Source of the DNA: Streptomyces nodosus
GTDB taxonomy: Bacteria; Actinomycetota; Actinomycetes; Streptomycetales; Streptomycetaceae
Length of the DNA stretch: 64,000 nt
NCBI RefSeq assembly: GCF_008704995.1
Contig: NZ_CP023747.1
Coordinates: 2,816,501 to 2,880,500, forward strand
Direction: 5' to 3'
A model generated the notes under the pieces. The model ran no database searches, was not told where the DNA came from, and worked only from the letters and a program-made list of their open reading frames with translations. This document shows positions 20,885 to 30,509 of this stretch, one piece after another. The stretch's first letter is position 1. Every line of letters starts with the position of its first letter. The translations under genes were made by a program, and so were the position numbers.

Positions 20885-21014
20885 ACCGATGCCCTTCTGC
20901 CGTCCCGATCTTCCGCAAGGCACCAACACGGACAGAACCGGATTTCATCCCTCCGCAATATTTCCCCCTTGTTCGGGGGACGCGGGAGGGCGGGACCGTC
21001 GTCCCGGGACGGGG

Positions 21015-21935
21015 TCAGCGCGCGGGTATCGCGGGCATGACCTCCTGCGGTGTGCTGGTGGGCACATAGGCGGTGGTGGTGGAGGCCGTCGGCACCAGGT
21101 CCTTGTGGATCGCCTTGGCCACGTTCTGGATGGTGGTGACGCCGTAGCTCATGGTGCTGTTGTCCTGGGTGAGCACGGTGATCATGTAGTCATGGCCGCG
21201 GCCGTCGAAGGTGCCGACGCTGTGCACACGCCAGCCGTGCGTGGCCCGCTGGAGCCAGCCGTTCTTGACATGCACGGCGACCCCGGAGGGCGTGCCCGCC
21301 GGGGTGCCCCAGCGCTGGGCGGAGACGACCTTCCCCATCAGCTTGAGGATGTAGGCGCGGGAGTTGTCGCTCAGCACGGAGTTCTTGGCGGTGATCAGCT
21401 TGAGCAGCTTCTGCTCGTCCTGCACCCGGATCTGGGTCAGCCCCCAGTAGCCGTTGGCGCCGGGCGTGGTCCCCGTCATGCCCGCGGCGGCCAGAAAGCC
21501 CTTGATCTTGGTCATCCCCAGCTGCTTCCACAGCGTGCTGGTGGCGGCGTTGTCCGACTTGGTGATCATGGCTGCGGCGAGGGTGTCCTCACGGCTCGTC
21601 AGATAGCGGTTGTGCTTCTTGGCGTCCCACAGCAGCGTGGCGAGCACGGTGACCTTGACGACGCTCGCCGAGTCGTAGGCACTGGTGGCGCGCAACGAGC
21701 AGGTGGTGTTGGTGGAGCGGTCGTAGAGCCCGACCGCGACCGTCCCCTTGCGGCTCGCGAGGGCGGCCGTGATGTCCTTCTGCAGCTTGGCGGCCAGTCC
21801 CGCCTGGCCCGATGTGCAACTGACCGCGGGCGTCGCGGCGGCGGCCGGCACGGCGGCCCCCACGATCGGCGTCAGCATCCCGACACCGAGGCCCGCGCAG
21901 AGCACACGGGCGCGCCGGGATCTCCGGTGAGTCAT
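21015..21935 (-). CDS. Secreted serine hydrolase, class A beta-lactamase fold
   Basis: The 306-residue protein has an N-terminal twin-arginine-like signal (RRSRRARVLCAGLGVGML, cleavage near AAAATPA, about residue 33). The domain has the penicilloyl-enzyme motifs in order: SVVK (Ser nucleophile and Lys) near residue 95, SDN near 132, and KNG in place of KTG near 238. The SxxK-SDN-K(T)G set is that of class A beta-lactamases, but the Glu166 omega-loop motif is not evident, so a DD-peptidase-like or non-lactamase role is as likely. ATG 21935 has GGGAG upstream; the longer open frame is not supported. Confidence 0.82.
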   Translation of the reverse strand: MTHRRSRRARVLCAGLGVGMLTPIVGAAVPAAAATPAVSCTSGQAGLAAKLQKDITAALASRKGTVAVGLYDRSTNTTCSLRATSAYDSASVVKVTVLATLLWDAKKHNRYLTSREDTLAAAMITKSDNAATSTLWKQLGMTKIKGFLAAAGMTGTTPGANGYWGLTQIRVQDEQKLLKLITAKNSVLSDNSRAYILKLMGKVVSAQRWGTPAGTPSGVAVHVKNGWLQRATHGWRVHSVGTFDGRGHDYMITVLTQDNSTMSYGVTTIQNVAKAIHKDLVPTASTTTAYVPTSTPQEVMPAIPAR

Positions 21936-22136
21936 GACATCTCCCTCTTTTCCGGGTGTGGGCGGGCGCGCCTCGGGCACGCTCGCCTCTACTGACTCGC
22001 CGAAGAGACCGAACGTTGTACGCGCGTTCGGGATGAAAAGTGCCATGGCCCCCCGACCGGTCCGGTCGGGGGGCCATGGTCGCGTCGGCCTGTCCTCTCG
22101 GGCCGTCGTCTCGGGCCGTCGCGTCGGGCCGTCGCG

Positions 22137-23822
22137 TCAGTCCAGATGGGTCGGTGCGAACATCCGTAGCAGCGCCGGAAGGACGACCACCGAGGGGCCC
22201 GGTTCGGCCAGCGCCTCGGCCAGGTCGGTCTCCAGGGACTCCGGAGTCGTACGGACCGCCGGGACACCGAAGGACTCCGCGAGGGCCACATAGTCCGGAC
22301 GGGTCAGCTCCGTCGCGGTCGCCTCGCCGAAGGCGTCCGTCATGTACTCACGCAGAATGCCGTAGCCGCCGTCGTCGACGATCAGCCAGGTCACGTTCAG
22401 GCCGTACTGGCGTGCCGTGGCCAGTTCGGCGATGGAGTAGAGGGCTCCGCCGTCGCCCGAGACGGCCAGCACCGGGCGGGTGGGGTCCGCGACCGCCGCG
22501 CCCAGCGCCGCCGGGAAGCCGTAGCCGAGGCCGCCGGCGCCCTGGGCCGAGTGCATGGTGTTCGCACCCCGGGGGTCGAAGGCCGACCACGCCCAGTAGG
22601 CCAGGATCGTCATGTCCCAGAAGGAGGGGGAGCCCGCCGGGAGGGCCCGGCGCACCGACGCCAGCACCTCCTGTTCCAGGGTGAGTTCCTGGGCGGCGAT
22701 GCGTTCCTCGACACGGGACAGCAGGGTCCGTACCCGCTCCGGGGCCGTCTCGTCCGCCCGCTCCGGCACCGTCTCCAGCAGCGCCTGCAGCGCCAGGCGG
22801 GCGTCCGCGTGGATGCCCAGGGCCGGGTGGTTGGACTCCAGCTTGCCGAGGTCCGCCTCGATCTGGATCACCCGGCCGCGCGGGCTGAAGGTGTGGTAGT
22901 TCGAGGAGAGTTCACCGAGGCCCGAGCCGACCACCAGCAGAACGTCCGCGTCCTGAAGGAAGTCCGTCGTATGGCGGTCCTCCAGCCACGACCGGAGGGA
23001 CAGGGGGTGCTCCCAGGGGAAGGCGCCCTTGCCGCCGAAGGTCGTGACGACGGGAGCGTTCAGCCGCTCCGCCAGCGCCAGCAGCTTGCCGGACGCGTCG
23101 GCCCTGACCACTCCCCCGCCCGCGATGATCGCCGGACGAGCGGCCTTCGACAGCAGGTCGGCCGCCACCGCGGTGAGTTCGGGGCGCGGCACCAGTGCGC
23201 CCGGCGACGCGTCCAGGGCCGTGACCACCGGCAGGGTCGTCTCCGCCAGGAGGACGTCCTGCGGGATCTCCACCCACACCGGGCCGTGCGGGACGGTCAG
23301 CGCCGACCTCCAGGCCTCGGCGATCGCGGACGGGATCTGCGAGGGGGTGCGGACCGTGTGCACGGACTTGACCACGCCCCTGAACGAGGCGGCCTGGTCC
23401 GGCAGTTCATGCAGATAGCCATGGCGTCCGCCGCCCAGCCCCGCGGTCGGGATCTGGCTGCTGATCGCCAGCACCGGGGCGGAGGCGGACGCGGCCTCCT
23501 GGAGCGCGGCCAGAGAGGTGAGCGCTCCCGGGCCCGTGGAGAGCAGCAGGGGCGCGGCCTCGCCCGTGATGCGCCCGTAGGCGTCCGCCGCGAAGCCCGC
23601 GTTGTTCTCCACCCGCAGTCCGACGTACCGCAGATCGGAGCGGCGCAGCGCGTCGAACATGCCGAGCGCGTGCTGGCCGGGCAGTCCGAAGACCGTGGTG
23701 GCGCCGAGCCCGGCCAGCGTCTCCACGACCAGGTCTCCGCCGTTGCGGCCCGGGGGAGGTGTCAGCGCGGCCTCGGTCTGTGCCGCCGTGGGGCGGAGGA
23801 CCAGGTCGTGGTCGTGGGTCAC
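22137..23822 (-). CDS. Thiamine pyrophosphate-dependent enzyme (acetolactate synthase-like)
   Basis: The 561-residue enzyme has the three-domain layout of the TPP decarboxylase/synthase family. The PYR domain carries the catalytic Glu in [18 protein letters not shown], the middle domain is FAD-binding-like, and the PP domain has the Mg-TPP motif SGDGGALYS followed by VDDGGYG. The second half of that motif usually ends in Asn, so the Asp is a small deviation. It could be a benzoylformate decarboxylase-, acetolactate synthase- or 2-keto acid decarboxylase-like enzyme. Its ATG overlaps the agmatinase stop (ATGA). In the context of a ureohydrolase, decarboxylating the keto acid left after amidine removal is plausible. 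Confidence 0.85.
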
Positions 23823-24826
23823 TTGGTCCCGGTCCCCTCACCGGCGCGGGCCGCCGCGATCTGGCGGGTCATGACGGTCGTCAGCTCGTACGCGGTGTGG
23901 GAGGCGGCCACCGAGGTGATCTCGGCGTGGTCGTAGGCGGGCGCCACCTCGACGACGTCCGCGGAGACCAGGTTGCAGGAGGCCAGACCGCGCAGGATCT
24001 CCAGGAGTTCACGGGAGGTCATGCCGCCGGCCTCGGGGGTGCCGGTGCCGGGGGCGTGCGCCGGGTCGAGGCAGTCGATGTCGATGGAGATGTACAGCGG
24101 GCGGTCGCCGATGCGCTGGCGCAGCTGGTCGGCGATCTCGTCCGCGCCGCGCCGGTAGACGTCGGCGGAGGTGACGATGCCGAAGCCCATCTTCTCGTCG
24201 TCGGTGAGGTCCTGCTTGCCGTACAGCGGGCCGCGGGTGCCGACATGGGAGAGCGCGGAGGTGTCGAGGATGCCCTCCTCCACGGCACGGCGGAACGGGG
24301 TGCCATGGGTGTACTCGGCGCCGAAGTAGGTGTCCCAGGTGTCGAGATGGGCGTCGAAGTGCAGCAGCGCCACCGGGCCGTGCTTCTTGGCGACGGACCG
24401 CAGCAGCGGCAGCGCGATGGTGTGGTCACCGCCGAGCGTCATCAGCCGGGCGCCCGTGCCGAGCAGTTCGTCGGCGGCGGCCTCGATGGTCTCCACGGCC
24501 TCGTTGATGTTGAACGGGTTCACGGCGATGTCGCCGCCGTCCGCGACCTGGGCGAGGGCGAACGGGGAGGCGTCCTGCGCCGGGTTGTAGGGGCGCAGCA
24601 GCCGGGACGCCTCACGGATGGCGTTGCCGCCGAAGCGGGCGCCCGGACGGTAGGAGACGCCCGAGTCGAAGGGCACACCGATCACCGCGACATCCGCGGT
24701 GCCGACCTCGTCGAGGCGCGGCAGCCGGGCGAACGTCGCCGGACCCGCGTACCGCGGGACGCGGGACGAGTCGACGGGCCCGCGGGGCCGGCCGTCGCCT
24801 GCTGCGGTGTTCTCGGTGCTGCTCAT
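23819..24826 (-). CDS. speB: Agmatinase / guanidino-acid ureohydrolase
   Basis: The 335-residue protein is a member of the arginase/agmatinase family that hydrolyses a guanidinium group to urea and an amine. All Mn-binding motifs are visible: [13 protein letters not shown] (HxDxHxD) and [19 protein letters not shown]. The substrate may be agmatine, guanidinobutyrate or guanidinopropionate, which sequence reading cannot separate. ATG 24826 has GGAGGAG upstream. The stop overlaps the TPP-enzyme ATG, and the sodium symporter lies 105 bp upstream behind a hairpin. The symporter, ureohydrolase and PucR regulator together suggest uptake and use of a guanidino compound or polyamine precursor. Confidence 0.9.
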
Positions 24827-24889
24827 CCTCGGACTCCTCCAGGTCATGCGTGTGTCATCGAAGGTCGCGGGCCCCCTGCGGGACCCGCT

Positions 24890-24920
24890 CGGTCCGGCCG
24901 CCGGGCGGGCGGCCGGACCG
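24890..24920 (-). terminator. Hairpin between symporter and agmatinase genes
   Basis: A 13-bp perfect stem (CGGTCCGGCCGCC with GGCGGCCGGACCG, 5-nt loop) begins 11 bp after the symporter stop and 64 bp before the agmatinase ATG. It can separate or attenuate transcription between the two genes. Confidence 0.72.
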
Positions 24921-24931
24921 AAGCGTCGGGC

Positions 24932-26392
24932 TCAGGCACCCACCGTGGCGGGCTCGTCCGTGTCCGCCGTGCCCCGCCCCGCGAGCCTCTCGCGCCAGGC
25001 GGCCAGCACCGCCTCGTCCGTCGGCTTCGTCGCCAGCGACACCACGACGTACGCGGCCAGCGAGGCCAGCAGCCCGTAGTAGACGGGCTCGTTGGCGAGG
25101 ATGCCGAAGGTGGCCATCAGGGCGATGACGGACAGACCGCCGACCGTCACCGCGGCCAGGGCGCCCTGCACGGTGCCGCGTCGCCACAGCAGTCCGCCCA
25201 GGATCGGGACCAGCAGACCGCCGACCAGCAGGTTGTAGGCCACGGTCAGCGCCTCGACCACATTGTTCAGGGCGATGGCCGTGCCGATCACCACGACCCC
25301 CATGACCAGGATGAAGACCCGGTTGCCCCTGACCTCGTCATGCTCTGCCCCGTCGCGGCGCACGACCCCCCGCAGCCGGGACCAGATGTCGTTGTTGGCG
25401 ACCGTGGCACAGGCGATGAGCGCCCCGGAAGAGGTCGACATCACCGCGGCCAGGGCGGCGGCCAGCACCAGCCCCCGCACACCGATGGGCAGTTCGTCCT
25501 TGACGATGGTGGCGAAGGCGTCGTCGGCGTTGCTCAGCTTCGGGTACATCACCTTGGCGGCGGTGCCGATGACGGCGCCGGCGATCGCGTACACCAGACA
25601 GTAGGTGCCGGCCACCGTGCCGCCCCACTTGGCGGTCTTGTCGCTGCGCGCGGTGAACACCCGCTGCCAGATGTCCTGTCCGATCAGCATGCCGAACGTA
25701 TAGATGAGGACATAGGTGAAGATGGTCTCCCCGCCGATGCCCAGCGGGTCGAAGTACGAGGTCGGCAGCTTGGCCTTCATCTCGCTGAAGCCGCCGGCCT
25801 TGACGACCGCGATGGGCAGCAGCAGAAGCAGCACACCGATGGTCTTCACCACGAACTGCACCATGTCGGTGAGGGTGATGGACCACATGCCGCCGAGCGT
25901 CGAGTACGCGACGACGATGGCGCCGCCGAGGATGATCGACACCGTGCGGTTCAGATCGAACAGGACGTCGAAGATGGTGGCGTAGGCGATGGTCGAGGTG
26001 ACCGCGAGCATCAGGGTGTACGCCCACATGACCACGCCGGATATCACCCCGGCCCGGCCGCCGTACCGCAGGTCCAGCATCTCGGAGACGGTGTAGACCT
26101 TCAGCCGGGCGATACGGGCGGAGAAGAAGACCGACAGGGCGAGCAGACCGAGGCCGATGGTGAGCACCATCCAGGCGCCGGAGAGCCCGTACTTGTAGCC
26201 CAGGCCGACACCGCCGATGGTGGACGCGCCGCCAAGGACGATCGCGGCCATGGTGCCGGAGTACATGGCGGGCCCCAGGCGGCGGCCCGCGACGAGGAAC
26301 TCGCTCTTGGACTTGGCGCGGCGCATGCCCCACCAGCCCATGGCCAGCATGCCGGCCAGATAGACGACGATCACTGTGTAGTCGACGGCCAT
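24932..26392 (-). CDS. Sodium:solute symporter (SSS family)
   Basis: The 486-residue protein has about 13 membrane helices and the SSS signature region around GLGYKYGLSGAWMVLTIGLGLL and IYTFGMLIGQDIWQRVF. It imports an organic solute with sodium. ATG 26392 has AAGGAGGGCC upstream. It leads a minus-strand set with the agmatinase and the TPP enzyme and faces a PucR regulator across a 227-bp promoter region. PucR proteins often regulate purine, polyamine or amino-acid use, so a nitrogen-rich solute is a reasonable guess. The exact substrate cannot be called. Confidence 0.9.
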   Translation of the reverse strand: MAVDYTVIVVYLAGMLAMGWWGMRRAKSKSEFLVAGRRLGPAMYSGTMAAIVLGGASTIGGVGLGYKYGLSGAWMVLTIGLGLLALSVFFSARIARLKVYTVSEMLDLRYGGRAGVISGVVMWAYTLMLAVTSTIAYATIFDVLFDLNRTVSIILGGAIVVAYSTLGGMWSITLTDMVQFVVKTIGVLLLLLPIAVVKAGGFSEMKAKLPTSYFDPLGIGGETIFTYVLIYTFGMLIGQDIWQRVFTARSDKTAKWGGTVAGTYCLVYAIAGAVIGTAAKVMYPKLSNADDAFATIVKDELPIGVRGLVLAAALAAVMSTSSGALIACATVANNDIWSRLRGVVRRDGAEHDEVRGNRVFILVMGVVVIGTAIALNNVVEALTVAYNLLVGGLLVPILGGLLWRRGTVQGALAAVTVGGLSVIALMATFGILANEPVYYGLLASLAAYVVVSLATKPTDEAVLAAWRERLAGRGTADTDEPATVGA

Positions 26393-26619
26393 GCGGGGCC
26401 CTCCTTCGCGCACTCTCCGGCGGCGTGTCGTGCAGTTGGTTGTCAGCGGGGACGCGGACGGCCGCGGTGGACCCGTCCGGCTGGGGCGACGACGGCTCGT
26501 GGGGACATCCGCCCGTACCCACGTCTGCCGGTCTGGACCGACCTTAGGTGGCCGGAAAGCATCGCTGAAGTGTACGTTTCATCCACCGGAAACCAACCGG
26601 ATGGAGGAACCGTCCACCC

Positions 26620-28380
26620 ATGCCGGAGCCATCGCCGCCGCCGTCCGCCCCCGCGGTACCGCCCACACCGCCGGTGCCGCTGTCCGCGCTGCTCGCCCGG
26701 GAGGAGCTGGGCCTGCGGCAGATCGCGGGACCGGTGGACCCCGGCACCGTGATCCACTGGGCCCACACCTCGGAGATGGCGGACCCGTACCCGTATCTGC
26801 TGGGCGGGGAGCTGCTGCTGACGGCTGGGGTGCATGTCGTGCCGGAGACGGCTGATGTTGTCCCGGGGACGGCCGGTGTTCCGGGGACGGCCGGTGTTCC
26901 GGGGACGGCCGGTGTTCCGGAGACCGGCAATGCTCGGGAGACGGCCGGTATCCCGGAGACGGCCGGTGTCCCAGAGACGGCGGGCGTACCGGAGACGGCG
27001 GGAGCCGCCGGGCGCGGCGCCCTGGGTGAGGCGGGCGCCCGCGGTGACGGCGGGGTTTCCGGGGTCGTTCCCGGGGCCGCAGATGTGAAGGCCGTCGGCC
27101 GCCTGGAGGCGTACTTCGACGCCTATGTCTCCCGGGTGGTGGAGGCGGGTGGCACGGCCCTCGGCTTCGGTCTGGCGCCGGTGCACGACACCGTGCCCAA
27201 GGCGCTGGTGGCGGCCTGTGACCGTCATGGGCTGCCGCTCCTCGAGGTCCCGCCGCGGACCACCTTCTCGGGCGTGGCCCGTGCGGTGGGCCAGCTGATG
27301 GCCCGGGCCCGCCTGGCGGAGCTGCGCCGGGTCACCGAGGCGCAGCAGAGCCTGGCCGCGGCGGCGGCGAGCCCCGCCCCGATCCCGGCGGTGCTGCGCC
27401 GGCTGGCCCAGCGGGTGGGCGGCCGGGCCGTTCTGTACGGGCCGGACGGAGCGGAACTGGCCGCGGCCGGACGGTCCGAGGAGGCCGCGGTCCGGGCGCT
27501 GGAGGAGCTGGCCGGGGTGGTGCGTCCCAAAGCCCCTTCGGGGTCCGCCGTCTCCGCCCCTTCCTCCGCCTCCGGCACCGTGGCCGGGACGCGCCTGGCC
27601 GCCTACGCCCTCGGCACCGGGCAGGGATTCGTCCTGGGGGTCGCCGCCCCGCGACGCGACCCGGGCGACCACACCATCTCCTCGGTCGCGGCGGTCCTGC
27701 TGTCCCTGCTCACCGGCGAGCACCAGAGCGCCGGTGGCGCGGCGCGTTCCTCGGCGCTGGTCCGGCTGCTGCTCGGGGCCCCGCCCGAGGAGGTCGCACC
27801 TCTGCTCGGGGGCGACCGCTGGGTGGTGGTGCACGCCCGGCCGGCCGGGGATCGCCCCGCACCGGACGCGGTGGCCGCGGCATCGCTCGGCGCGGCGCTG
27901 GGCTCCACGCTCGTGGAGGTGAGCGACGCCGTGGTGCGCGTCCTGGTGCCCACCGAGCGGGAGCCTGCCGCGCAGCCGGGCTGGACGCTCGGGGTGAGCG
28001 CGCCGGTGGAGGCCGCGGGGTGGCCGGCGGCCGACGCACAGGCGTCCCGTGCGCTGGCCCGGGCCCGCGCGACCCGCACCCCGCTGTTGCGCCACGGTGA
28101 GCGCACGGGCCTGACCGACCTGGTCCCGCCCGCCCAGGCCGAGCTGCACGCCCGTACCCTGCTGGCACCGCTCGCCCAGGCCCCCGCGCTCGTCGAGACC
28201 CTGCGCAGCTGGCTCTCCCTGCACGGCAGCTGGGACCGCACGGCGGTGGCCCTGTCCGTGCACCGCAACACCGTCCGCCAGCGCATCGCACGCTGCGCCG
28301 CCTCGCTCGACGCCGACCTGGACGACCCGGATGTCCGCATGGAGCTGTGGTTCGCCCTGAAACAGACGGGGACGGTCTGA
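26620..28380 (+). CDS. PucR family transcriptional regulator with repeat insertion
   Basis: The 586-residue protein has an N-terminal PucR (purine catabolism regulator) domain split by a low-complexity repeat at about residues 72-130, then a GGDEF-related middle domain, and a C-terminal PucR HTH (HTH_30) with LRSWLSLHGSWDRTAVALSVHRNTVRQRI and FALKQTGTV at the end. The N-terminal domain resumes as YFDAYVSRVVEAGGTALGFGL after the insertion, so the repeat sits in a loop and the reading frame is intact. It is divergent from the symporter gene and likely controls it. An imperfect inverted repeat near 26582-26605 is an operator candidate. Confidence 0.88.
   Translation: MPEPSPPPSAPAVPPTPPVPLSALLAREELGLRQIAGPVDPGTVIHWAHTSEMADPYPYLLGGELLLTAGVHVVPETADVVPGTAGVPGTAGVPGTAGVPETGNARETAGIPETAGVPETAGVPETAGAAGRGALGEAGARGDGGVSGVVPGAADVKAVGRLEAYFDAYVSRVVEAGGTALGFGLAPVHDTVPKALVAACDRHGLPLLEVPPRTTFSGVARAVGQLMARARLAELRRVTEAQQSLAAAAASPAPIPAVLRRLAQRVGGRAVLYGPDGAELAAAGRSEEAAVRALEELAGVVRPKAPSGSAVSAPSSASGTVAGTRLAAYALGTGQGFVLGVAAPRRDPGDHTISSVAAVLLSLLTGEHQSAGGAARSSALVRLLLGAPPEEVAPLLGGDRWVVVHARPAGDRPAPDAVAAASLGAALGSTLVEVSDAVVRVLVPTEREPAAQPGWTLGVSAPVEAAGWPAADAQASRALARARATRTPLLRHGERTGLTDLVPPAQAELHARTLLAPLAQAPALVETLRSWLSLHGSWDRTAVALSVHRNTVRQRIARCAASLDADLDDPDVRMELWFALKQTGTV
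26840..27007 (+). repeat. 18-bp coding minisatellite within the PucR gene
   Basis: About eight in-frame 18-bp units encode V/I-P-G/E-T-A-G hexapeptides. Three consecutive units around 26864-26917 are nearly identical (core ccggggacggccggtgtt), then come degenerate units ending near 27007. The identity gradient suggests recent slippage at the 5' side. Unit count probably differs between strains. Confidence 0.88.
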
Positions 28381-28381
28381 C

Positions 28382-28417
28382 GGACGGGCGCTCCGGGTCC
28401 CCGAGTGACGCCCGTCC
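28382..28417 (+). terminator. Hairpin after the PucR gene
   Basis: GGACGGGCG and CGCCCGTCC pair over an 18-nt loop that can itself form a CTC-GGG/CCC-GAG inner stem, beginning one base after the stop codon. Confidence 0.6.
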
Positions 28418-28470
28418 CACGGCGCGAAACAGCGGCTGACCCGGCGCGGCGCCCCGGCAGAATGGAGAGC

Positions 28471-29259
28471 ATGCCGATACCCGGGACCCCCAGCCGCGCC
28501 GAGCTCGTCGACCACCTCGTCAGGACCCGTATCGCGGGCGATGTCGCCACTCCCCGCGAGAACAACCTCTCCCACTACCGCAAGCTGGCGAACGGCGACC
28601 GCCACTACTGGCTGGGCCTGGAACTCGGCGACCGCTGGGGCGACGAGCAGGACGTCCTCGCGGTGATGGCGGAGCGCTGCGGCGTCAGCGACGACCCCGA
28701 GCACCGTTACGGCCAGGACACCATCGACCCGGAGCTGACGGTCGACGCCCTGGACCGCCTCGCGGGCCGGCTGCGCAAGGCCGCCGACGGCGAGCAGCGC
28801 GTGCTGTTCGCCACCGGTCACCCCGGCGGGCTCCTGGATGTGCACCGTGCCACCGCCGCCGCGCTGCGGGCCGCCGGCTGCGAGATCGTCGTCATCCCGG
28901 ACGGGCTGCGGACGGAGGAGGGGTATGTCTTCCAGTTCGCGGACGTCGCCGTGCTGGAGCACGGGGCCACCCTCTGGCACACCCACTCCCCCGAGCCGAT
29001 GCGGGAGATCCTCAAGAGGCTGGAGCGCGAGGGCCGGCCGCTCCCCGATCTGGTGGTCGCCGACCACGGCTGGGCGGGGTGCGCGGGTCAGCTCGGCATC
29101 GACTCGGTCGGATACGCCGACTGCAACGACCCGGCGCTCTTCCTCGCCGAGGCCGAGGGCACCGTCCAGGTGACGGTCCCCCTCGACGACCATGTCACCA
29201 GCCCCCGCCACTACGACCCGCTCACGGCCTATCTCCTCAGCCGGGCGGGCCTGGCCTGA
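28471..29259 (+). CDS. Phosphatase-annotated conserved actinobacterial protein
   Basis: The 262-residue cytosolic protein is widely conserved in Streptomyces under the name phosphatase. Visible features are NNLSHYRKLANGDRHYWLGLE near the N-terminus, FATGHPGGLLDVH (about residue 112-124), a WHTHSPEPM segment and VVADHGWAGCAGQLGIDSVGYADCNDPALF in the C-terminal half. His and Asp residues in these motifs could bind metal. ATG 28471 is preferred because CAGAAT, a -10-like hexamer at 28458-28463, lies seven bases upstream, as in a leaderless transcript. An ATG nine bases earlier is possible. Enzyme activity is not established by sequence alone. Confidence 0.7.
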   Translation: MPIPGTPSRAELVDHLVRTRIAGDVATPRENNLSHYRKLANGDRHYWLGLELGDRWGDEQDVLAVMAERCGVSDDPEHRYGQDTIDPELTVDALDRLAGRLRKAADGEQRVLFATGHPGGLLDVHRATAAALRAAGCEIVVIPDGLRTEEGYVFQFADVAVLEHGATLWHTHSPEPMREILKRLEREGRPLPDLVVADHGWAGCAGQLGIDSVGYADCNDPALFLAEAEGTVQVTVPLDDHVTSPRHYDPLTAYLLSRAGLA

Positions 29260-29298
29260 CCGACGACCACCGTCCCGGCCCGCCGACGGTCCTCGGGG

Positions 29299-29319
29299 GC
29301 CCGGGACGGGGTCCCGGCC
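29299..29319. terminator. Hairpin between convergent phosphatase and acyl-CoA dehydrogenase genes
   Basis: CCGGGAC and GTCCCGG pair around ggg with additional G-C pairs outside, 40 bp after the plus-strand gene and 33 bp after the minus-strand gene. Confidence 0.55.
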
Positions 29320-29351
29320 GGGTTCTCGCGGGCCTCAGCGCCGTAGGGACC

Positions 29352-30509
29352 TCACAGCCCCATGTCCTTGGCGATGATCGACTTCATGATCTCGCTGGTG
29401 CCGCCGTAGATGCGGTTCACGCGGTTGTCGGCGTACAGCCGGGCGATCGGGTATTCGTTCATATAGCCGTAGCCGCCGTGCAGCTGGAGGCAGCGGTCGA
29501 TCACCCGATGGGCGACCTCGGTGCAGAACAGCTTGGCGCTCGCGGCCTCGGCCGGGGTCAGTTCGCCCGCGTCCAGCGCCTCCAGGGCACGGTCGGCGAC
29601 CGCCTCGGCGGCGTCCACCTCGGCCTGGCAGGCGGCCAGTTCGAACTTGGTGTTCTGGAAGTGCGCGACCGGCTTGCCGAAGACGGTGCGCTCCTGCACG
29701 TACTGCTGTGCGAACCGGACCGCGGCCCTGGCCTGCGCATAGGCGCCGTAGGCGATGCCCCAGCGCTCGGAGGGCAGATTGGCGCCCAGGTAGGAGAAGC
29801 CCTTGTTCTCCTCGCCGAGCAGGTCCTCGAGCGGGACCTTGACGTCGACGAACGCCAGCTCGGCGGTGTCGGAGGTGCGCAGGCCGAGCTTGTCGAGCTT
29901 GCGGCCGACGGAGTAGCCCTCGGACCGGGTGTCGACGGCGAGCAGGGAGATCCCGTGGCGACGGTCCTCGGGCGTCGACGGGGAGGTGCGGGCGCAGACG
30001 ATCACCCGGTCGGCGTGGACGCCCCCGGTGATGAAGGTCTTGGCGCCGTTGAGGACATAGTGCGTGCCGTCCTCGGAGAGCCTGGCGGTGGTCTTCATGC
30101 CCGCGAGGTCGGAGCCGGTGCCCGGCTCGGTCATCGCGATGGCCCACATCTCCTCGCCGGAGACGAACTTCGGCAGATAGCGCTTCTTCTGCTCGTCGGT
30201 GGCGAGCATCTTGAGGTACGGCAGGGCGAGCAGGACATGCACGCCTGACCCGCCGAAGGTGACGCCCGCGCGGGCGGTCTCCTCGTACTGGATGGCCTCG
30301 AACTTGTGTGTGTCCAGGCCGGCGCCGCCGTACTCCTCCGGCGCGTTGATACCGAACAGCCCCAGGTCGGCGAGCTTGTAGTAGAACTCGCGCGGCGCCT
30401 GACCGGCGGCAAGCCACTGGTCGTACACCGGTACGACCTCGGCCTCGATAAAGGCGCGAAGGGTCTCCCGGAACGCCTCATGATCCTCGTCGAACACCGT
30501 ACGACGCAC
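29352..30509 (-). CDS. Acyl-CoA dehydrogenase
   Basis: The 385-residue flavoenzyme oxidises an acyl-CoA to a 2,3-enoyl-CoA, passing electrons to ETF. The family signatures are present: AMTEPGTGSDLAGMKTTA (FAD-loop, about residue 130), the hydrophobic core, QLHGGYGYMNEYPIARLYAD and the C-terminal GGTSEIMKSIIAKDMGL. The catalytic Glu is likely in the YGGTSE region or the upstream helix, depending on chain-length class. GGAGGT precedes the GTG start. It is monocistronic, and a perfect CAAGCGCTTG palindrome lies 38 bp upstream of the start, suggesting TetR-type control. Chain-length specificity is unknown. Confidence 0.9.
   Translation of the reverse strand: MRRTVFDEDHEAFRETLRAFIEAEVVPVYDQWLAAGQAPREFYYKLADLGLFGINAPEEYGGAGLDTHKFEAIQYEETARAGVTFGGSGVHVLLALPYLKMLATDEQKKRYLPKFVSGEEMWAIAMTEPGTGSDLAGMKTTARLSEDGTHYVLNGAKTFITGGVHADRVIVCARTSPSTPEDRRHGISLLAVDTRSEGYSVGRKLDKLGLRTSDTAELAFVDVKVPLEDLLGEENKGFSYLGANLPSERWGIAYGAYAQARAAVRFAQQYVQERTVFGKPVAHFQNTKFELAACQAEVDAAEAVADRALEALDAGELTPAEAASAKLFCTEVAHRVIDRCLQLHGGYGYMNEYPIARLYADNRVNRIYGGTSEIMKSIIAKDMGL

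Follow-up and report, generated by a model that had tools for sequence, protein, structure and literature searches.

A conserved ureohydrolase and thiamine diphosphate enzyme unit in Streptomyces nodosus as a possible PucR-controlled operon for guanidino acids

Closest described systems and the S. nodosus locus

Three described systems stand closest to the locus considered here: the gbu locus of Pseudomonas aeruginosa, the arginine transaminase pathway and the clavam pair of a thiamine diphosphate (ThDP) enzyme and an amidinohydrolase. The locus lies in the 7.77 Mb, single-contig genome of Streptomyces nodosus, within a window of 64,000 nucleotides (contig NZ_CP023747.1, positions 2,816,501 to 2,880,500), which is the whole stretch of DNA that was analyzed and to which all coordinates refer. 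It comprises genes for a ureohydrolase, a ThDP-dependent enzyme and a sodium:solute symporter on the minus strand, with a divergent gene for a PucR-family regulator on the plus strand. The original prediction, made from the sequence of the window alone, had read these as a single guanidino-compound unit; all four genes and their domains were recovered in the open reading frames and by Pfam, and their linkage as one unit was upheld. We regard the chances as evenly balanced that the unit is a PucR-controlled operon by which guanidino acids derived from arginine are taken up and degraded, an actinobacterial counterpart of the gbu locus.

The gbu locus was read from a P. aeruginosa plasmid copy (L201), which we take to be that locus from its match to GbuA, the neighbouring bdlA gene and the gene order of PAO1. 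The copy holds genes for a LysR regulator, a guanidinobutyrase (matching the solved enzyme 3NIO by eye), an NTF2-like protein, a cytosine permease, a symporter, a '5-guanidino-2-oxopentanoate decarboxylase' and a GlcD-like flavin adenine dinucleotide (FAD) oxidoreductase. The plasmid stretch from bdlA to the gbu genes agrees with the chromosomal gene order. Common to the gbu locus and S. nodosus are a guanidinobutyrase-type ureohydrolase, a sodium:solute symporter (SSS) and a ThDP decarboxylase-type enzyme as neighbours. The two differ in their regulator (LysR in the former, PucR in the latter), in gene order and in the FAD oxidoreductase of the gbu locus, whose ThDP enzyme moreover belongs to the AruI family (883 bits) and is only 34% identical to that of S. 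nodosus. The S. nodosus symporter (24932..26413, minus strand; Pfam SSF) is 52% identical to the gbu symporter, and when the latter was used as query against the S. nodosus genome the symporter of the unit scored 495 bits and the next match 74.5. It probably transports a guanidino acid, as this homology suggests. An NCS1 permease 54% identical to the gbu cytosine permease adjoins the unit in several actinobacteria.

The Streptomyces clavuligerus cluster (L197) likewise has a ThDP enzyme and a ureohydrolase in one cluster, recorded as 'thiamine pyrophosphate-binding protein' and 'agmatinase', which we take to be carboxyethylarginine synthase and proclavaminate amidinohydrolase. That clavam pair is biosynthetic. 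Its two genes are separated by an asparagine synthase-related gene, whereas those of S. nodosus overlap, and its ThDP protein is only 26.5% identical to the S. nodosus one. The suggestion in the original prediction, to which the combination was not known as a described pathway, was not borne out, given the same gene kinds in the gbu locus and the pairing of ThDP enzyme and ureohydrolase in S. clavuligerus.

The AruH/AruI pathway and the AspC/IlvB1 network of Sinorhizobium meliloti share with the route proposed below the ThDP-dependent decarboxylation of an arginine-derived 2-oxo acid, the oxidation of the aldehyde and the hydrolysis of guanidinobutyrate to 4-aminobutyrate (GABA) (PMC7268258, in excerpt). 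The S. nodosus locus differs from AruH/AruI in that its ThDP enzyme comes from another clade than AruI and that no transaminase was found among the neighbouring genes scanned. The polyketide amidinohydrolases Medi4948 and DstH of Streptomyces, likened here by description only, belong to the ureohydrolase superfamily too, but act in late-stage antibiotic tailoring and not in catabolism (PMC5704753 and PMC4737276, both in excerpt).

Conservation of the unit and its two enzymes

Conservation was measured in two overlapping samples: 37 genomes of the genus, S. nodosus included (ureohydrolase at ≥85% identity, ThDP orthologue at ≥75%), and a class-wide sample of 394 genomes (ThDP enzyme at E ≤1e-140, ureohydrolase at E ≤1e-100, symporter at E ≤1e-120). 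The ureohydrolase was present in 37/37 and the ThDP orthologue in 31/37 of the genus genomes, and in all 31 holding both the two genes were adjacent on the same strand, with no more than about 610 bases between match ends and one pair split across a contig end. Class-wide, the ureohydrolase was detected in 125/394 genomes (39 of the 40 Streptomyces) and the ThDP enzyme in 48/394; every one of these 48 also held the ureohydrolase, adjacent within about 345 bases in 45. Outside Streptomyces, 18/18 genomes with the ThDP enzyme had the ureohydrolase, compared with 86/354 overall (Fisher 2e-12, uncorrected for kinship). A further set consisted of the best 80 of at least 581 confirmed related loci in named genomes (79 Streptomyces, one 'Actinobacteria bacterium'), and in all 80 the ureohydrolase gene precedes the ThDP gene with a gap of 0-217 bases. 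The linkage of the two genes is far beyond chance. The original prediction had proposed a check of co-occurrence in genomes and would have been contradicted had the pair never been linked, which is the opposite of what these counts gave. A close symporter was found in 36/394 genomes, 33 of which also hold the ThDP gene; it is the loosest part of the unit, with 8/69 large Streptomyces loci having no strong match. On the Arthrobacter plasmid NicSoilB11-1 (L187:108-10644) there are two ThDP copies of opposite orientation; both are accompanied by matches to ureohydrolase and symporter, and the second set is fragmented.

The ureohydrolase (23819..24847, minus strand; Pfam Arginase) is the sole PF00491 match in the S. 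nodosus genome. All six GbuA metal or catalytic positions that were checked are kept (H142, D165, H167, D169, D256 and D258; five of them as given in PMC9772407, in excerpt), and the alignment contains the binuclear metal ligands of the superfamily, in agreement with the complete Mn motifs first reported for this protein. Its best solved match is the P. aeruginosa guanidinobutyrase 3NIO (288 bits), followed by proclavaminate amidinohydrolase (258 bits) and guanidinopropionase (247 bits). GbuA R72, for which a contact to the substrate carboxylate has been proposed (PMC9772407, in excerpt), is R85 in S. nodosus and is kept in 12/12 actinobacterial rows aligned; the S. clavuligerus (clavam) enzyme has His at this position.

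Gene contexts lacking the ThDP gene point to the same substrate. The genomes of genus g3, from the same order, have no close ThDP orthologue; in 9/10 of them the distance between the ureohydrolase gene and a gene for an L-amino acid oxidase/monooxygenase is 1.0-3.7 kb, and in the tenth the two are on different contigs. A carbon-nitrogen hydrolase (nitrilase-family amidase) gene stands between them in L172/L196, L174 and L176, and a Tsukamurella plasmid (L198) has, by annotation, the same gene kinds. Conversion of arginine to 4-guanidinobutyramide and then to 4-guanidinobutyrate supplies the azalomycin starter (PMC5082578, in excerpt), and an arrangement of monooxygenase, amidase and ureohydrolase is the one expected for these steps. 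In L175 the genes after the ureohydrolase encode a GABA transaminase (795.7 bits, against a cut-off of 639) and a dehydrogenase. Judged by these contexts, 4-guanidinobutyrate lies upstream of the ureohydrolase step and GABA downstream. The Streptomyces mediocidicus 'agmatinase' Medi2865 hydrolyses 4-guanidinobutyrate (PMC5704753, in excerpt). From homology and context, the S. nodosus enzyme is very probably a 4-guanidinobutyrase.

The ThDP enzyme (22137..23822, minus strand; 561 aa, GTG start) follows with a stop/start overlap of 4 bases (23819..23822, minus strand). The coupling by overlap that had been described is real, although the overlap reads GTGA, with GTG as start codon, and not ATGA. 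The protein has three Pfam TPP_enzyme domains, a catalytic Glu and the cofactor motif GDG...DDGGYG, in which the second motif residue is Asp; the general form of this motif is GDG...(N/D)(N/D). By sequence it is a member of the ThDP-dependent decarboxylase/carboligase superfamily. The DDGGYG string had been singled out as unusual in this protein; it is genuine but no oddity of a single protein, being present in 160/162 matches at ≥50% identity, some of them from the same genome (154 VDDGGYG, 6 IDDGGYG). Of the two exceptions, one row (L001) is truncated where the locus ends and the other (L159) is a decayed copy; slightly changed forms occur in some sister proteins as well. Asp as a metal ligand in this motif is chemically plausible. 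The decayed copy belongs to one of the 45 adjacent pairs, in a Streptomyces genome (G173; L159:9061-10734), where the GDG motif is gone and the second cofactor motif is cut; the ureohydrolase match there is of full length.

With respect to its reaction, the ThDP enzyme is the best match in S. nodosus to the gbu-locus decarboxylase (231 vs 194 bits for the next). In family f19 a dehydrogenase gene lies downstream of the ThDP gene, directly or after an NCS1 gene, in 7/8 genomes that hold the ThDP gene; the one f19 dehydrogenase scanned passes the aminobutyraldehyde dehydrogenase cut-off (637 vs 615 bits), the remaining ones are 75-85% identical to it, and S. nodosus encodes a 60% identical dehydrogenase elsewhere in its genome. 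A 4-base overlap joins an AruI-family gene to a dehydrogenase gene in Caballeronia. This dehydrogenase linkage and the likeness to the gbu decarboxylase favour an aldehyde product and hence decarboxylation, and we tentatively assign the ThDP enzyme as a 2-ketoarginine decarboxylase, an assignment a little short of evenly balanced. On a Caballeronia plasmid (L188:12104-12514) a partial match to the ureohydrolase without annotation (33.6% over 137 aa) was observed after the AruI-family and dehydrogenase genes, which suggests the same three-enzyme set with the ureohydrolase truncated.

Proposed pathway and competing explanations

In the scheme that we propose for substrates, step order and regulation, the symporter would bring in 4-guanidinobutyrate or a similar guanidino acid. 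2-Ketoarginine (5-guanidino-2-oxopentanoate) would be decarboxylated by the ThDP enzyme to 4-guanidinobutyraldehyde, which an aldehyde dehydrogenase (its gene being elsewhere in S. nodosus but near the ThDP gene in f19) would oxidize to 4-guanidinobutyrate, and from this the ureohydrolase would release GABA and urea. Decarboxylation, oxidation and urea removal, in this order, is the best fit, since the ureohydrolase apparently serves other sources of 4-guanidinobutyrate, and the ureohydrolase is more likely to be the last step.

A number of observations weigh against this scheme. The ThDP enzyme lies under the cut-offs of all 25 families shown among the 54 matched, including PRK08266 (NF006122; 382 vs 571 bits) and AruI itself (NF005712; 350 vs 500 bits), and a PRK08266-family protein (L190) scores 354 bits on the AruI model, on which three AruI-family proteins score 629-884 bits. 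An AruI label drawn from the family score was dropped as evidence, since L190 scores equally. In a tree of 36 ThDP rows taken by tblastn (L207 left out), a single clade (100/100) unites 17 actinobacterial rows, and other unnamed proteins from actinobacteria join it (98/98). The AruI-family proteins fall apart from them, with the actinobacterial L163, L165 and L208-L210 (99/97), of which L163 itself passes the AruI cut-off (539.5 bits). A joint clade of AruI and the S. nodosus ThDP clade was rejected by the approximately unbiased (AU) test (p-AU 0.00098), a question set by the pathway, with the test run after the trees had been seen. On these sequences the ThDP enzyme belongs to an actinobacterial subfamily of another clade and is no orthologue of AruI. 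In the ureohydrolase, GbuA loop residue M161 is replaced by Tyr174; Tyr at this position is found alike in P. aeruginosa guanidinopropionase and Aspergillus niger guanidinobutyrase (PMC10833137, in excerpt).

The genomic setting raises further objections. ThDP genes without an adjacent ureohydrolase occur in 3/48 genomes (G101, G333 and G359); further examples are the second of two ThDP copies in G193 (L158) and the gene of Embleya (L186). In G359 (L215) the order is PucR, symporter and ThDP gene, with the ureohydrolase on another contig. A search of the 80-locus set for the f19 dehydrogenase, monooxygenase, amidase, NCS1 permease and GABA transaminase gave no match at E 1e-40; AruH-type transaminases were not included in that search. 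A monooxygenase gene is present in 37/37 Streptomyces genomes, with the amidase beside it in S. nodosus, and the best solved match of the S. nodosus monooxygenase is an 'L-amino acid oxidase/monooxygenase'; the substrate of this pair may be a different amino acid, for example lysine. As its substrate is uncertain, an arginine monooxygenase as general Streptomyces partner was not used as proof. Streptomyces lividans is stated to lack arginine monooxygenase in the excerpted text of PMC5082578.

These points bear on four competing explanations. That the ThDP enzyme works on some other 2-oxo acid or is a carboligase, so that the guanidino pathway consists of symporter and ureohydrolase only, is rather unlikely; its position outside the AruI clade and below every family cut-off shown would fit, as would the copies lacking an adjacent ureohydrolase (L141, L148/L194, L158, L186 and L215), but adjacency in 45/48 genomes and the ureohydrolase in every non-Streptomyces ThDP genome speak against it. 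The reverse order, as in the original prediction, would have the ureohydrolase act first on the guanidino 2-oxo acid and the ThDP enzyme then convert 5-amino-2-oxopentanoate to 4-aminobutyraldehyde. The compound 5-amino-2-oxopentanoate is expected to cyclise, and ureohydrolases of the clade occur without a ThDP gene near genes expected for 4-guanidinobutyrate supply or GABA use, which would place them last; the linked dehydrogenase, on the other hand, is of the aminobutyraldehyde family. The reverse order also has a precedent in vitro in S. meliloti, where SpeB2 accepts 5-guanidino-2-oxopentanoate, 4-guanidinobutyraldehyde and 4-guanidinobutanoate, the ThDP enzyme IlvB1 is sevenfold more active on 5-amino-oxopentanoate, and both step orders are supported (PMC7268258, in excerpt). 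For S. nodosus we consider it distinctly improbable.

An agmatinase making putrescine is what the NCBIfam cut-offs (PRK02190, TIGR01230), both passed by the ureohydrolase (314.5 vs 302; 232.5 vs 174.3), would indicate. Such a label is not discriminating: the guanidinobutyrase of the gbu locus obtains nearly equal scores, passing TIGR01230 (212 vs 174.3) and falling just under the other cut-off (297 vs 302). R85 and the gene contexts favour a guanidino acid, and the human 'agmatinase' (60% identity to GbuA) acts on guanidino acids and not on agmatine (PMC9772407, in excerpt); an agmatinase is thus very unlikely. A clavam-type biosynthetic pair of carboxyethylarginine synthase and proclavaminate amidinohydrolase can draw on the proximity of the same two superfamilies in S. 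clavuligerus, but is scarcely credible given the distant ThDP protein there, the symporter and PucR gene in the S. nodosus unit instead, and the lack of any beta-lactam synthetase-like gene among the unit genes and three flanking genes scanned. A bolder proposal departs from the gbu-like operon in its enzyme and substrate: the ThDP clade, with its all-Asp (DD) motif, would represent an enzyme class of its own, new and with a recruitment separate from that of AruI, and the unit would salvage an imported guanidino 2-oxo acid or a related 2-hydroxy acid (for example argininic acid) under a dedicated PucR switch and without a transaminase. We think this unlikely.

Regulatory region, non-coding elements and implications

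The divergent regulator (26620..28380, plus strand) has Pfam PucR and HTH_30 domains. Between it and the symporter gene lies a block of about 46 bases (26540..26585, minus strand; consensus TGGATGAAACGTACACTTC...CTTTCCGGCCACCTA) that is conserved in 75 aligned rows and whose 17-base core occurs once in the whole S. nodosus genome at ≤2 mismatches. The block lies ≤400 bases before the first operon gene in 65/69 large Streptomyces loci; in L091 it is further off, before a short symporter match. It was found in 65 of the 66 such loci with a PucR match, the exception (L052) holding a C-terminal piece only; two of the three loci with no detected PucR lack it and the third (L095) has it, so that block and PucR presence agree in 67/69. 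Five loci have the block but no strong symporter match, and in four of them it lies ≤400 bases before the ureohydrolase gene, the fifth being L091. The block is a candidate PucR site and could serve as promoter, operator or both. The N-terminal part of the PucR gene contains an 18-bp tandem repeat (26842-26999) of about 8 copies that encode PETAGV; 69/74 related loci have no PETAGV-like string.

The gap between symporter and ureohydrolase genes contains a G+C-rich double hairpin (24867..24921, minus strand) of two stems at -55.7 kcal/mol (z -4.83, with 0/200 shuffles as good). The hairpin noted earlier between the symporter and the coupled pair is therefore real, yet not a family trait: among the 60 loci shown of 69 tested, a strong double hairpin is common by eye to four (L032, L036, L038 and L042), L061 and L092 have other strong folds, and the remaining 54 are weak (-13.7 to -28.3 kcal/mol). 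A short palindrome, CGCGAYGAAGCG, stands before the ureohydrolase gene in 47/51 matches over 80 loci (L032-L111), and its two stem ends, judged by eye, change together (TACGC/GCGTA, TGCGC/GCGCA); in S. nodosus the palindrome is missing from this place, where the large double hairpin stands. A terminator-like hairpin of 17 pairs lies 3' of the ThDP gene (22043..22079, minus strand), and positions 21900-28500 contain two hairpins of this kind, compared with a mean of 0.8 in shuffles. No Rfam family or riboswitch reached gathering scores in 21000-29500, and no sigma-70-type promoter was found in 21900-28500.

Among the papers listed in searches of an open-access library, none was recognizably on the Streptomyces unit, on the clade of its ThDP enzyme or on the candidate operator. 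Through the unit, a testable function can be proposed for the near-universal Streptomyces 'agmatinase', which is probably a guanidinobutyrase, and also for the ThDP clade, which reaches none of the family cut-offs shown. That homologous symporters stand next to ThDP enzymes of two different subfamilies would amount to non-orthologous replacement, and the question of the PucR ligand becomes accessible by way of the candidate operator. The ureohydrolase could also tap the supply of 4-guanidinobutyrate, which serves as starter unit for antifungal arginoketides (PMC10322714 and PMC5704753, both in excerpt).

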